The notes beneath the pieces were generated by a model, which was not told where the DNA came from, made no database searches, and saw only the letters and a program-made list of their open reading frames with translations. Of a DNA stretch of 64,000 nt, positions 1 through 20,134 are shown in pieces. Made by a program: the position numbers and the translations under genes. The stretch lies in NCBI RefSeq assembly GCF_034092375.1, contig NZ_CP139302.1, positions 310,001-374,000 of the forward strand, given 5' to 3'. Positions within the stretch are counted from its first letter, which is position 1. Every line of letters starts with the position of its first letter. The DNA is from Prochlorococcus sp. MIT 1300 (lineage in GTDB: Bacteria; Cyanobacteriota; Cyanobacteriia; PCC-6307; Cyanobiaceae).

Positions 1-839
1 GACTTACGTATAAGGATGCAGATGAGTTGATAGACTTTGCTCCAACTGAAGAAATAGATCTTGCAGTTCTATCCAAATTACTTAAAGTAAGATTAAACTG
101 GCGACTAAGTCAGTCTGCTATACAGCTTGAACAACCTATAGGTCGATTTCGGGCGAAAAATAATAAGCTAACAGTTGAAATTCTAGAACCATCAGTTGCA
201 AGAAGTCTGGTCTCAGAAGCGATGATTTTGTATGGAACAGTAGTTGCACAACATTGTATAGCTAATCAACTAACAGTGCCGTTTAGAAGTCAGAGCAGAT
301 TCGAATTACCTCCAAATTCCTCACTTATTAACTTGCCTGAAGGTCCAGTAAGAAATACAACCATAAGAACTAACATGACAAAGGGTATAAGTGGTATAAA
401 ACCCTCCCCACATTTTAGTATGGGTTTGGATGCTTATGTCCAGGCGACCTCCCCTATTCGACGCTACAGTGATTTAATTATACAGAGACAGATTATCTCA
501 TTCAGCACGGGTAGACCACAATATTCCGACGAAGATATACTATCACTGATAGACGAATTGTCTGCAGCTTCTAAGCAGTCCTTAGCCATAACAAGAGAAG
601 ACCAATATTATTCAAGATATTTATGGTTTAAGAATTCCTCTGCAAATCACTATAGTGCACAATTCCTTAGATGGCTTCGTCCAAACGAGGGAATCGCACT
701 AGTTCACATAACATCCCTTGCGATGGACCTGCCTTCTAAAATTAAAGGTGTACGAGATCTTCCGCCAGGTTCCCTACTTAAAATAAGAGTTGATTCTATT
801 GACGACAAGACCTTCAAAATCTATCTTGTTAATGAATAA
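1..839 (+). CDS. rnb: RNB-family exoribonuclease (RNase II/R type), C-terminal part
   Basis: The frame is already open at base 3, so the gene starts before the window and only its C-terminal ~279 codons are visible. It should degrade single-stranded RNA 3'-to-5' in the cytoplasm. The visible part carries the family signature TSPIRRYSDLIIQRQI (near base 450), with both arginines and the Y-S-D intact, so this copy looks catalytically competent. A short S1-like stretch (ALVHITS...LKIRVDSI) ends the protein. metG follows after 100 bases; an RNB gene before metG is a common order in marine picocyanobacteria. The N-terminal Asp cluster cannot be checked here. Contrast with the degenerate paralogue at 17.2 kb. 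Confidence 0.9.
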   Translation, partial: LTYKDADELIDFAPTEEIDLAVLSKLLKVRLNWRLSQSAIQLEQPIGRFRAKNNKLTVEILEPSVARSLVSEAMILYGTVVAQHCIANQLTVPFRSQSRFELPPNSSLINLPEGPVRNTTIRTNMTKGISGIKPSPHFSMGLDAYVQATSPIRRYSDLIIQRQIISFSTGRPQYSDEDILSLIDELSAASKQSLAITREDQYYSRYLWFKNSSANHYSAQFLRWLRPNEGIALVHITSLAMDLPSKIKGVRDLPPGSLLKIRVDSIDDKTFKIYLVNE

Positions 840-16032: not shown

Positions 16033-16395
16033 ATGAAGAACCAGAACTGGAAATGCATTAAAGGATGCGGAGCCTGTTGCAGGATTGAACCTCTAGAACG
16101 CCATGAGGCACTAAAGGTCCTCTCAGAAACCCAACTTGCCAAATACCTAGATATGGTTGGTGAGGATGGGTGGTGCCGTCATTACAACCTCTCTACCAAA
16201 TCCTGTTCTATATATTCTGAGCGACCTGATTTTTGTAGGGTTTCGAATCTGTCAATTCTCTTTGATATACCAGAAGATTCCGCAGAGGCATTTGCTATCA
16301 AATGCTGCAGAGATCAAATAAATTCAGTCTATGGGGGAAGAAGCGTTATCAAAAAGCAATTCGAAAAAGCCCTCCGTTCCTCTAAGCCCAAATGA
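16033..16395 (+). CDS. YkgJ-family cysteine-cluster protein
   Basis: A 120-residue protein with the metal-binding cysteine pattern CIKGCGACCRIEP near the start, CRHYNLSTKSCSIYSERPDFCRV in the middle and a late CC. This is the YkgJ/UPF0153 family, predicted to bind zinc or an iron-sulfur cluster; the function is unknown. I chose ATG 16033 over an in-frame TTG at 16009. Its stop overlaps the next gene's ATG, so it is translationally coupled to the GDT1-type transporter pair, hinting at a metal-related role (inference). Confidence 0.8.
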   Translation: MKNQNWKCIKGCGACCRIEPLERHEALKVLSETQLAKYLDMVGEDGWCRHYNLSTKSCSIYSERPDFCRVSNLSILFDIPEDSAEAFAIKCCRDQINSVYGGRSVIKKQFEKALRSSKPK

Positions 16396-16757
16396 CTGAC
16401 AACCTTGATTCAAAAACAACTGCACAGAGCTCAGATGAAAATGATGATTCCAAGGGATTCCTTGTTGTCGCATTAACTACCTTTACAACAGTCTTCATTG
16501 CTGAAATCGGTGACAAGACTCAATTAGCAACTCTTCTTCTTTCGGCTCAGTCGGGAAAACCAGTTACAGTTTTTTGTGGAGCTGCATTAGCACTGATTTC
16601 ATCTAGTCTTGTGGGGGTCTTGTTGGGTCAGTGGTTAACAAAGATACTTGCTCCAGAAAGATTTGAAGCCATGGCTGGTCTAATGATGTTAGGACTTGGA
16701 CTATGGATAGGAATTGGATCTCTTAATTCACTATTCATACACTTTCAAACAGCCTGA
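16392..16757 (+). CDS. GDT1/TMEM165-family (UPF0016) cation exporter, half-size subunit 1
   Basis: A 121-residue protein with three transmembrane helices and one copy of the family motif AEIGDKTQLATLLLSA (residues ~35-50). In full-length GDT1/Mnx/PAM71 proteins two such halves are fused; these export manganese (or calcium) across thylakoid or plasma membranes. Here the halves are separate adjacent genes. The N-terminal ~25 residues are acidic and polar. It starts in ATGA overlap with the upstream cysteine-cluster gene. Confidence 0.85.
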   Translation: MTDNLDSKTTAQSSDENDDSKGFLVVALTTFTTVFIAEIGDKTQLATLLLSAQSGKPVTVFCGAALALISSSLVGVLLGQWLTKILAPERFEAMAGLMMLGLGLWIGIGSLNSLFIHFQTA

Positions 16758-16759
16758 TA

Positions 16760-17086
16760 ATGACTCTTTCACTACTAGTATCTACATTTTTTACAGTTTT
16801 TCTAGCTGAATTAGGAGACAAGACACAGCTTGCGACTGTTGCCCTCAGTGGAACATCTAATAGGCCTGGCGCAGTATTTTTTGGTTCAGCATCTGCCTTA
16901 GTCCTCGCGAGTTTATTAGGAGCCCTGGCAGGAGGGTCAATCGCAGAGTTGATTCCTACTGATTACCTAAAGCTATTGGCATCCTTAGGCTTTTTGACAA
17001 TTGGGGTGAGATTATTGCTCCCAACCTTCAAGATAAAAAGTTCTCTCCAGCAAGAAATTGATGGAAATGAGACTACTGACGCTTAA
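16760..17086 (+). CDS. GDT1/TMEM165-family (UPF0016) cation exporter, half-size subunit 2
   Basis: A 108-residue second half, with motif AELGDKTQLATVALSG (residues ~14-29) and three hydrophobic helices. It begins three bases after the stop of the first half. The two are likely made together and assemble as a hetero-oligomer in inverted topology, recreating the two-motif ion path of fused family members. Manganese export is the best-supported role for cyanobacterial members, but substrate is inferred here. Confidence 0.85.
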   Translation: MTLSLLVSTFFTVFLAELGDKTQLATVALSGTSNRPGAVFFGSASALVLASLLGALAGGSIAELIPTDYLKLLASLGFLTIGVRLLLPTFKIKSSLQQEIDGNETTDA

Positions 17087-17178: not shown

Positions 17179-19530
17179 ATGATGCTTTTTACAGTTTCCA
17201 GTCTTATAGAACATATAAGACCTCAGGGTGAGATAGAGGTAAAGAAACTTGAAAAGATCCTCAAACTAACGAAAAAGGCAGATCGTCAAAAATTAGAAAT
17301 AGCAATAAATGCTCTATCAAGACTAGGTTTATTAAAGCAGTTAGATAACGGAATAATTCAGTTAAATGATACGGATAGTTTTGTTGAGGGTAAACTTAGG
17401 TGCAGTAGTAAAGGATATTGTTTTGCCTTGAGAGATGACGAAGGAGAAGATATCTACATCAGAGATCAATATTTAAACCATGCATGGAATGGAGACCGCG
17501 TATTAGTAAAAGTCACTAGAGAGGGTATAAGAAGGAGGTCCCCAGAGGGCACCATTCAATGTATTTTAGAGAGGTCTACTACTAACCTTCTAGGTGTTGT
17601 AGATAAACAAGAAGATGAATTATATGCTCTACCTCTAGATGACAGGTTACTAACAATAATAAAGCTGCCTGAAGCAGATAGTTGTTATTTCCAAGAAAAC
17701 CCTGAATTAAGCCTTGTTGAAGTAAAGATTGATAAGTACCCTTTAGCACAATTTCCAGCTGAAGGTCATGTCGCTAGGCCATTAACCCTAAAGGGTGGAT
17801 TATCTGGTGATAGAGATATCTTGTTAACGAAAGCAAGCCTTCAAGATCTTCCGAAGCCTCCTAGGTGTTCTCTCAAAGCAACAAATTCAGCTAATAGACT
17901 TGACCTTACAAAGCAACCATCAATCCTCTTAAGAAGTTGGACTTCTGAGAGCAGTCCAACGTTACCTGCTGTACATGTACAACCTCACAATGGAGGATTT
18001 CATCTTTGGGTTCATTCACCAGCTATAGCAGAGAGAGTAACAATAGGCAATACACTTGAGAGTTGGTTAAGAGAAAGAAACCAAGCACACTGTCTAGGGG
18101 ATATATGGATCCCACTATTAAATAAAACGTTAGAAGCCAGAACTAATTTCAAGCTCAATGAAGTACAGGAATCTGTAAGCGTTAAACTAGAAATTGATTC
18201 AGAAGGGGATCTAAAAGATTGGGAGTTTGCATTAAGTTCAATTAAACCTGTTGCGGAAGTAAACCAGCAACATCTAGAAGCTATTTCCACGAGAAAGCCA
18301 AAAGCTAGAACTATTCCCTCTACATTAAAATCCATAAAGGAAGAGTTGGATCAAATCAATGATTTGATCCACTGCTCAAGAGCATTAAAACGATCTGAAA
18401 TACAAGCTGGATTAATTGAGCTTGACCTTCCGACACCTGATATAAAACATATTGGTGATTTACGCTTTGTTGATCCTACAAAGATTTTTAACCAATGGAC
18501 TCTTCCCCTTAATGAACAAGATCCTAATTCATTATTAGCCCCTGTTATAAGGGCTGCATCAAAGGCACTAGGGATTCATCTTAATAGATTAAACATACAA
18601 CATCTTGCAGTTAACTATGAAGAATTAGCAATTAATAGCCTCAATGAAGTTGCTAAAACCGCACTTGCACTCGATTTGGAATTAGAGTTGACGGATGATG
18701 GCAATCCAACGCCAAATGAACTTGCTAGCGCTTTTTCCCAAACTGAATGCAAACGTGTCTTACAAAAACAACTACGTCATGCCCTTCCTGAATTGAAAGT
18801 ATTTACACACAAACAAAATGACCAAGATACTAATTTAAACGAAATAGGTGAGACTGAAACCAACCAAGAAACAACAATTCATTATGCTAACTGGACTTGC
18901 CCAGCGAATCACTACCTTGATATTACAAATCAACAGATACTCGTTAATTTATTAGCCAATGGAAAATCAAGAGCAACTGCAAGGCACAAAATCCAAGTTA
19001 ACTTAGGGAAAAAGGAATGTTGGTCCGATATTACCTGGGATATATTAAGCCAATCCGTCCAAAGCAACATAGAGTTATTGACTCAAGAAAAATACGTTAA
19101 TAACATTAACCTAGGAAGAAAACAGGCTGCTGATTTAAATAAGGATATGGTATCAATGTTGCAAGCAAGGTCAGCGGAACATATGGTTGGCCAAATCCAA
19201 AAAGCGACTATTAGTGGTGTTCAAAGCTATGGTTTCTTTGCTGAAATCTCCCCTTCTATGTTTGAAGGACTTGTTCACGTAAGTTCTTTAAACGATGACT
19301 GGTATGAATATCGATCAAGGCATAATAAACTTGTTGGACGAAAAAGTCGAAAGGTCTATCAAATTGGAGACATTCTAGATGTAAGAGTGTTAAAGGTCGA
19401 TGTCCTAAGAAATCAAATAGACCTTGAAGTAGCTTCATTACAGGATTCAGATGAGCACCCAAGCGATGAGATTGATGACAGAAATATTGAATCCATAGCC
19501 ACATCTTCGTCAGATGAAAATGACCAATAG
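17179..19530 (+). CDS. RNase R-like protein with degenerate RNB catalytic centre
   Basis: A 783-residue protein with the layout of RNase R: N-terminal winged-helix (~1-60), cold-shock-type RNA-binding domain (SFVEGKLRCSSKGYCFAL..., ~65-115), RNB domain (~235-640) and a well-kept C-terminal S1 domain (~669-745). The RNB active site is lost. Where active enzymes have the D-x5-D-x-DD aspartates, this reads SILL...SSPTLPAV (248-265), with none of them. The SPIRRYSDL motif has become CPANHYLDI (574-582), losing both arginines. It probably binds RNA without degrading it. An active family member starts the window. Its end overlaps ubiX by 17 bases. Confidence 0.85.
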   Translation: MMLFTVSSLIEHIRPQGEIEVKKLEKILKLTKKADRQKLEIAINALSRLGLLKQLDNGIIQLNDTDSFVEGKLRCSSKGYCFALRDDEGEDIYIRDQYLNHAWNGDRVLVKVTREGIRRRSPEGTIQCILERSTTNLLGVVDKQEDELYALPLDDRLLTIIKLPEADSCYFQENPELSLVEVKIDKYPLAQFPAEGHVARPLTLKGGLSGDRDILLTKASLQDLPKPPRCSLKATNSANRLDLTKQPSILLRSWTSESSPTLPAVHVQPHNGGFHLWVHSPAIAERVTIGNTLESWLRERNQAHCLGDIWIPLLNKTLEARTNFKLNEVQESVSVKLEIDSEGDLKDWEFALSSIKPVAEVNQQHLEAISTRKPKARTIPSTLKSIKEELDQINDLIHCSRALKRSEIQAGLIELDLPTPDIKHIGDLRFVDPTKIFNQWTLPLNEQDPNSLLAPVIRAASKALGIHLNRLNIQHLAVNYEELAINSLNEVAKTALALDLELELTDDGNPTPNELASAFSQTECKRVLQKQLRHALPELKVFTHKQNDQDTNLNEIGETETNQETTIHYANWTCPANHYLDITNQQILVNLLANGKSRATARHKIQVNLGKKECWSDITWDILSQSVQSNIELLTQEKYVNNINLGRKQAADLNKDMVSMLQARSAEHMVGQIQKATISGVQSYGFFAEISPSMFEGLVHVSSLNDDWYEYRSRHNKLVGRKSRKVYQIGDILDVRVLKVDVLRNQIDLEVASLQDSDEHPSDEIDDRNIESIATSSSDENDQ

Positions 19531-20134
19531 TAAGCCATATGTGTTAGCTATTACAGGAGCATCTGCTCAACAAGTTGCAGAAAGGTGTTTATATTTATTA
19601 TTAGAGAGTCAATTAACCATTCATCTGGTCCTAAGCAAAGGTGCGCACATAGTATGGCAATCAGAAATTGGCGTAAATGTACCAGTAGACTCTGGGTTAC
19701 AAGAAAAATTTTGGCGAGAAAGACTTGGAACTTCTAAAGGAAAACTTATTTGCCACAAATGGAATGATCATTCTGCTTCTATTGCAAGTGGAAGTTTTCG
19801 AACAAAAGGTATGATTGTTCTTCCATGTACTATGGGCACTATAGGAAGAATAGCCTCAGGGATTTCTTCTGATTTAATAGAACGTTGTGCCGATGTACAT
19901 TTGAAAGAAAATAGACCATTAATACTTGCTCCTAGAGAAACTCCTTTAAGTCTGGTTCATCTTCGTAATCTAACTAGCCTTACTGAAGCTGGAGCAAAGA
20001 TATACCCGCTTATACCTTCCTGGTATTCGAAGCCCGAGACATTAGAGGACATTATAGACTTTCTAGTTATTAGATTATTTGATCATTTTGATGAAGAACT
20101 AAAGAACATACAACGTTGGCAAGGAGGAATTTAA
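19514..20134 (+). CDS. ubiX: UbiX-family flavin prenyltransferase
   Basis: A 206-residue flavoprotein that makes prenylated FMN, the cofactor of UbiD-type decarboxylases used in quinone synthesis. The N-terminal AITGASAQQVAER takes the FMN-phosphate loop position; the later ILPCTMGTIGRIASGISSDLIERCADVHLKE and LAPRETPLS are the diagnostic UbiX motifs. An alternative ATG lies at 19520. It begins inside the end of the RNase R-like gene and overlaps the next gene by one base. Confidence 0.9.
   Translation: MKMTNSKPYVLAITGASAQQVAERCLYLLLESQLTIHLVLSKGAHIVWQSEIGVNVPVDSGLQEKFWRERLGTSKGKLICHKWNDHSASIASGSFRTKGMIVLPCTMGTIGRIASGISSDLIERCADVHLKENRPLILAPRETPLSLVHLRNLTSLTEAGAKIYPLIPSWYSKPETLEDIIDFLVIRLFDHFDEELKNIQRWQGGI

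Follow-up and report, generated by a model that had tools for sequence, protein, structure and literature searches.

The zam locus

The window analysed here is a stretch of 64,000 nucleotides from Prochlorococcus sp. MIT 1300 (contig NZ_CP139302.1, positions 310,001 to 374,000), and its subject is zam, an open reading frame (ORF) on the + strand at 17179..19530 with an ATG start, 783 codons and, as had originally been predicted, no internal stop. The 783-aa product is Zam (acetazolamide-resistance protein), a cyanobacterial RNase R relative and an RNB-family pseudonuclease, an assignment drawn from the ORF, domain profiles, a fold model, gene order and published work on the family (Thomas et al. 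2022, PMC9145284). Exactly two RNB genes are present in the genome, which forms one contig of 1.86 Mb: zam and rnb, the 3' part of the latter lying at 1..839 (+). As is characteristic of the Zam family, the protein is encoded in single copy, in a genome that also encodes an intact Rnb, and has ubiX (flavin prenyltransferase; 19514..20134, +) as its neighbour, the two frames overlapping by 17 bases at the zam stop.

From its N-terminus Zam comprises a helical or winged-helix-like segment, two cold-shock domains (CSD1 and CSD2), a degenerate RNB domain, an S1 domain and a disordered tail (residues 755-783). CSD1, an OB domain and the most conserved part of the protein (residues 71-127; 17389..17559, +), is recognised by the Pfam model OB_RNB with 60.7 bits; the RNB domain (residues 240-593; 17896..18957, +) scores 132 bits over the full length of its Pfam model, and the S1 domain (residues 667-752; 19177..19434, +) scores 45.4 bits at 667-751. 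CSD2 has no Pfam match at its own place and is put at ~128-205 by alignment and model, such that the RNase R-like order CSD1-CSD2-RNB-S1 is present with CSD2 on those two grounds only. In this regard, the earlier statement that the cold-shock and S1 domains are intact holds for CSD1 and S1, with CSD2 unrecognised by Pfam. Against the NCBIfam model of RNase R (TIGR02063), Zam scores 186.9 bits, far under the equivalog cut-off of 597.85 bits.

Catalytic site, fold and lineage

Every catalytic residue of the RNB site is replaced in the window protein, the Mg-binding D201, D209 and D210, as well as D207 and Arg500, all being without a counterpart in the alignment. The former Asp loop (residues 250-265; 17926..17973, +) reads LLRSWTSESSPTLPAV in place of TIDxxxxxDxDDAV, and residues 248-265, which span ILLRSWTSESSPTLPAV with the positions flanking it, are devoid of Asp where the loop normally holds four. 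Likewise, the former SPIRR(Y/K)xDL signature has become CPANHYLDI (residues 574-582; 18898..18924, +), a segment with no Arg in which Asn577 is the equivalent of Arg500, and C305 (18091..18093, +) aligns with the RNA-stacking Tyr253 of RNase II. The original prediction had named both the missing Asp cluster at 248-265 and the change of SPIRRYSDL to CPANHYLDI, and on both counts it was right. Since the loop is without Asp and CPANHYLDI without Arg, the verdict of a dead site is independent of the alignment; in other words, catalytic Asp residues that are present but shifted, an objection that the prediction had itself raised, are ruled out for the window protein, however the loop is aligned. 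Nor is the loss one of chance or of a sequencing error in a single strain, because it is seen across 48 Cyanobiaceae proteins: in this second set the loop holds no Asp in 26 and one in 22, and the segment equivalent to SPIRR lacks Arg in 47 of the 48. In the first Cyanobiaceae set, there is no acidic residue at the four catalytic positions in 42/43 and R500 is found in 0/43.

The body of the protein has nonetheless the appearance of RNase R. The structure model has a mean predicted local distance difference test score (pLDDT) of 86 and a predicted template modelling score (pTM) of 0.84, with the RNB region mostly >90 in pLDDT, and its top structural matches are RNase R chains (among them 5xgu, Z 33.4, root-mean-square deviation (rmsd) 3.5 over 595 residues; 8cdu, Z 35.1, rmsd 4.9 over 597 residues). 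Zam is thus predicted to keep the RNase R fold intact, with the catalytic chemistry gone; it has its fold and domain order in common with the RNase R of E. coli and B. subtilis, which, however, keep the catalytic residues that the window Zam has lost in full. A similar fate is known from yeast Ssd1 and other fungal pseudonucleases, members of the RNase II family in which the Asp cluster was lost independently and which are kept for their N-terminal cold-shock domains (PMC8934651, PMC8097288). The structure of Ssd1 matches the Zam model with Z 28.6, but RNA binding is demonstrated for Ssd1 only and not for Zam, and Ssd1 descended from Dis3L2 in fungi, whereas the best sequence matches of Zam are bacterial RNase R and its family is cyanobacterial. 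The resemblance is therefore best regarded as functional analogy and not as common descent. We know of no redox Cys pair in Ssd1 or in other fungal pseudonucleases.

Across cyanobacteria, Zam forms a separate, nuclease-degenerate RNB clade in which conservation lies in the OB-fold domains, as Thomas et al. described (PMC9145284). The dead-nuclease interpretation was in its main point published in 2022, RNA binding being no part of it, and the framing of the window protein as something new does not survive. Zam of Synechocystis (sll1910) and of Synechococcus PCC 7002 (A1543) has its domain order, degenerate RNB domain and Cys spacing in common with the window protein, as well as the zam-ubiX gene order, which is found across the class. 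Picocyanobacterial Zam are the most eroded, with Arg500 gone and Cys newly conserved at 128, at 305 and, in many of them, at 574. What the present analysis adds is the graded loss of the site, the assignment of the Anabaena protein Alr1240 through gene order, and the shortening of Rnb.

In a Zam tree built with and without the catalytic columns, in which the position of long-branched rows beside the Cyanobiaceae is unsure, the greater part of the site survives in four lineages, as D-A-D-D, Tyr or Phe, and Arg-Arg in G227 and G211, as E-T-D-D in G254 and as K-T-D-D in G208. Of the four Asp of the RNB site, the first, third and fourth are Mg ligands, the second being in contact with the 3' OH (PMC8097288); G227 and G211 therefore keep the metal-binding set, since D-A-D-D retains exactly these three, in loops that are longer than that of E. 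coli. Most of the remaining lineages carry variants of E-x-E-N. As judged from sequence, catalysis appears to have been lost in steps, of which picocyanobacterial Zam, retaining nothing of the site, would be the furthest. To say that no Zam possesses the site is correct where all four Asp are meant, but goes too far if every lineage is thereby declared inactive; the survey, by locating the steps of the loss, points to orthologues that could still be active. Outside the picocyanobacteria, the most aberrant member is a 699-aa Zam (L084; G279, family f18) that lacks the two CSD1 Cys and a large part of the Asp-loop region. Separately, one cyanobacterium (L120; G236, family f10) carries, besides Zam and Rnb, a third RNB gene in which the D-D-D-D site is complete.

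Selection, cysteines and the Rnb paralogue

An intact Zam orthologue is present in 165/167 good Cyanobiaceae genomes and in 190/190 Nostocaceae genomes, and Zam was found in the sampled Cyanobacteriia generally; in the search of the phylum, the genomes without a match, among the 20 listed of 84, lie outside the class. Pairs drawn from the Cyanobiaceae, in which the closest available relative of the window Zam has 55% identity, give a ratio of nonsynonymous to synonymous substitution rates (dN/dS) of 0.08-0.17 over the whole gene for close picocyanobacterial pairs and of 0.10-0.22 for the RNB domain, with CSD1 and S1 mostly below. The prediction that Zam is kept under selection is well founded on these values and on the orthologue counts, and the broken orthologues in close relatives that would have told otherwise are not what the Cyanobiaceae contain. 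Indeed, a pseudogene or a frameshift is excluded by the open frame, the orthologues and the dN/dS. A viral origin or phage copies of Zam were also considered and set aside, there being no relative among the viral contigs searched. Mean identity within the Cyanobiaceae is 0.76 for CSD1, 0.71 for S1 and 0.39-0.50 for RNB, and the motifs of CSD1 and S1 are invariant; in Rnb the order is reversed, at 0.72-0.74 for RNB vs 0.62. The RNB domain of Zam is hence less constrained than CSD1 and S1, but it is not free.

The CSSKGYC motif of CSD1 contains C75 and C81 (codons within 17401..17421, +), which by alignment are equivalent to C73/C79 of PCC 7002 Zam, a pair that is redox-active. In PCC 7002, the one strain for which redox-dependent activity in vivo has been shown, Zam has a redox-dependent mobility and Cys-to-Ser mutants resemble the deletion (PMC9145284). 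The two residues lie six apart in the L12 loop and are conserved as Cys class-wide, in 94/96 and 95/96 of the Zam proteins sampled across 22 families. In addition to this pair, the window protein has conserved Cys specific to the Cyanobiaceae in the stretch at 17560-18903: C128, invariant in both sets (43/43 and 48/48), lies ahead of the RNB domain; C305, at the position of the RNA-stacking Tyr, is Cys in 41/43 of the first set and 43/48 of the second; and C574, at the Ser position of the signature, in 38/43 and 31/48. C128, C305 and C574 could possibly form a second thiol site in the region of the dead active site.

The full rnb gene (GTG start, 438 aa; contig 309523-310839, equal to L156:4524-5840) extends beyond the window, and profile search, alignment and frame identify its product as N-terminally truncated with an intact site. 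Its catalytic positions read D-E-D-D, Y, Y, R, R, which agrees, as far as residues can tell, with the apparently active RNB protein that had been noted at 1-839. The Asp loop lies 58 residues into the open frame, this distance being 58-65 residues in short Rnb vs about 280-350 in long Rnb. Other cyanobacterial Rnb have ~230-280 more N-terminal residues, which in two distant cyanobacteria are recognised by Pfam as a CSD-like barrel, a winged helix and a double helix-turn-helix (HTH); a Synechococcus-type Rnb has the N-terminal region, unrecognised by Pfam. Among Cyanobiaceae genomes with a readable frame length, short frames of 398-466 aa occur in 20 genomes of 1.6-2.2 Mb and long frames of 676-737 aa in 39 genomes of 2.1-3.9 Mb, with no intermediate lengths. 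In 12 genomes with a short frame, the lost N-terminal part turned up at no other place, in a search whose controls were positive in 5/5 cases at 33-86% identity; the sole weak match (G000, E 9e-4) is in a stop-containing stretch. Rnb has thus lost its whole N-terminal domain set in small-genome Cyanobiaceae, which we read as Prochlorococcus, such that the paralogues Zam and Rnb carry complementary losses. One short-Rnb genus (g8) may have lost the N-terminal part independently. A limited literature search found no report of a shortened Rnb in Prochlorococcus.

Readings of Zam function

Zam is found throughout cyanobacteria under strong selection. Published work speaks for redox control and perhaps for an involvement of RNase E, whose gene is present in the window genome. 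Much turns here on Alr1240 of Anabaena PCC 7120, an 'RNase II' which, according to a review (PMC10989914), is active, degrades unstructured RNA, and binds and stimulates RNase E; Thomas et al., on the other hand, call Alr1240 Zam (PMC9145284). In Nostocaceae zam is followed by ubiX and then by a gene for a protein of 221-233 aa, all on one strand, whereas rnb, in the one related genome with a readable flank, is followed by opposite-strand genes. In PCC 7120, alr1240-alr1241-alr1242 are transcribed together as a unit (PMC10287535) and the alr1242 product has 221 aa (PMC2823733). Because this order matches that of zam, ubiX and the 221-aa gene, Alr1240 is very probably the Zam orthologue, and the literature then describes one orthologue group both as an 'active RNase II' and as inactive. 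At the D-D-D-D positions its close relatives have x-V-E-N, often E-V-E-N, and they keep both Arg. Either, therefore, an E-V-E-N-like Zam is active or the Alr1240 preparation was contaminated. The conflict matters for Alr1240 as a model and does not touch the window Zam, in which the acidic residues and both Arg found among the relatives of this published exonuclease are gone and the site is far more eroded.

On balance, we consider it probable that Zam descends from a 3'-5' exonuclease of the RNase R type and is now a non-catalytic, redox-tuned regulator that uses CSD1 and S1 to act on RNA, on RNase E or on both. An RNase R-type ancestor would have lost catalysis stepwise while the Zam body retained the RNase R shape; CSD1 and S1 would make the contacts to RNA, to the decay machinery (RNase E) or to both; the C75-C81 disulfide would open and close with the photosynthetic redox state; and RNA turnover would thereby follow light and electron flow. 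The concentration of conservation in CSD1 and S1, not in RNB, and the retention of the Cys pair support this, as do the RNase R-like fold, the low dN/dS, the mutant phenotypes of PCC 7002, the RNase E binding and stimulation reported for Alr1240 and the RNase E gene of the window genome. We infer the contact with RNA or RNase E, and, by analogy with PCC 7002, a redox switch that would operate alike in the window organism. Several observations weigh against it. The RNB domain has invariant residues specific to Zam, among them W277, E285, R286, W310 and K387, and, as it is also under purifying selection, it is more than dead weight and may be where the real function lies. Purified PCC 7002 Zam was neither a nuclease nor RNA-binding on the substrates tried, a result about which the authors are cautious on account of aggregation, and its phenotypes involve phycocyanin and phycobilisomes (PMC9145284); such a phenotype cannot be the general function, since the window genome, unlike the reference strains, has two phycobiliprotein genes only, which are adjacent, and with Zam retained there, phycocyanin synthesis is excluded as its basic role. 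The activity reported for Alr1240 stands on the same side. Of the original proposal of an RNA-binding chaperone or decoy that is not a nuclease, the catalytic inactivity stands, and the RNA binding finds no support in the purified protein.

That same absence of RNA binding in PCC 7002, together with the RNase E gene, lends some weight to a protein scaffold without RNA binding that would alter the activity of RNase E, or of some other decay factor, by binding to it, the OB domains serving as protein contacts; we regard this as rather unlikely, since in CSD1 of Zam the types of residue with which RNase II contacts RNA are retained (PMC9145284) and the RNase E interaction was tested in one species only, the Zam of which is ~33% identical to that of the window. 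More doubtful still is a partnership in which the Prochlorococcus paralogues split one enzyme between them, Rnb as the bare catalytic domain and Zam as the redox-sensitive, dead carrier of CSD1, CSD2 and S1 that supplies RNA-binding modules and steers Rnb decay in trans. The short Rnb of 20 genomes and the loss of its CSD-like, winged-helix and double-HTH domains would fit, and the shortening offers a testable reason for keeping a dead nuclease in the most abundant photosynthetic organisms; however, the Zam trees place the loss of Zam catalysis earlier than the shortening, Zam domains including CSD1 are less conserved in short-Rnb genomes than in other Cyanobiaceae (0.66 vs 0.90) and streamlining alone could account for a short Rnb, so that Zam making up for the shortening is speculation. 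A residual or non-canonical nuclease that cuts RNA through an altered metal site might be argued from Alr1240, with its E-V-E-N-like relatives, and from those lineages that retain D201, D209, D210, Tyr and Arg, but it is very improbable for the window protein, where the loop Asp, Arg500 and Tyr253 are all gone and Cyanobiaceae Zam show no other conserved cluster of acidic residues; moreover, in PCC 7002 zam can be deleted and rnb cannot (PMC9145284). Finally, the rapid divergence of the RNB sequence, greatest in the most reduced genomes (four with RNB at 52-59 bits), might suggest a decaying, functionless gene, a view that is scarcely credible when zam is open in nearly every genome, its dN/dS is far <1 even in RNB, the CSD1 and S1 motifs do not vary and deletion phenotypes are known elsewhere (PMC9145284).

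Beyond zam itself, ubiX is adjacent and co-directional in 76/81 Zam loci across the class, and in many of these a LapA-like gene and DUF2996 lie further downstream. In cyanobacteria UbiX is linked to plastoquinone synthesis, and one might guess that its adjacency to zam fits the redox theme. Just upstream of zam, at 16392-17086, two adjoining short genes each encode a single GDT1 (cation/proton antiporter) domain, so that the transporter is divided between two proteins of half the size.
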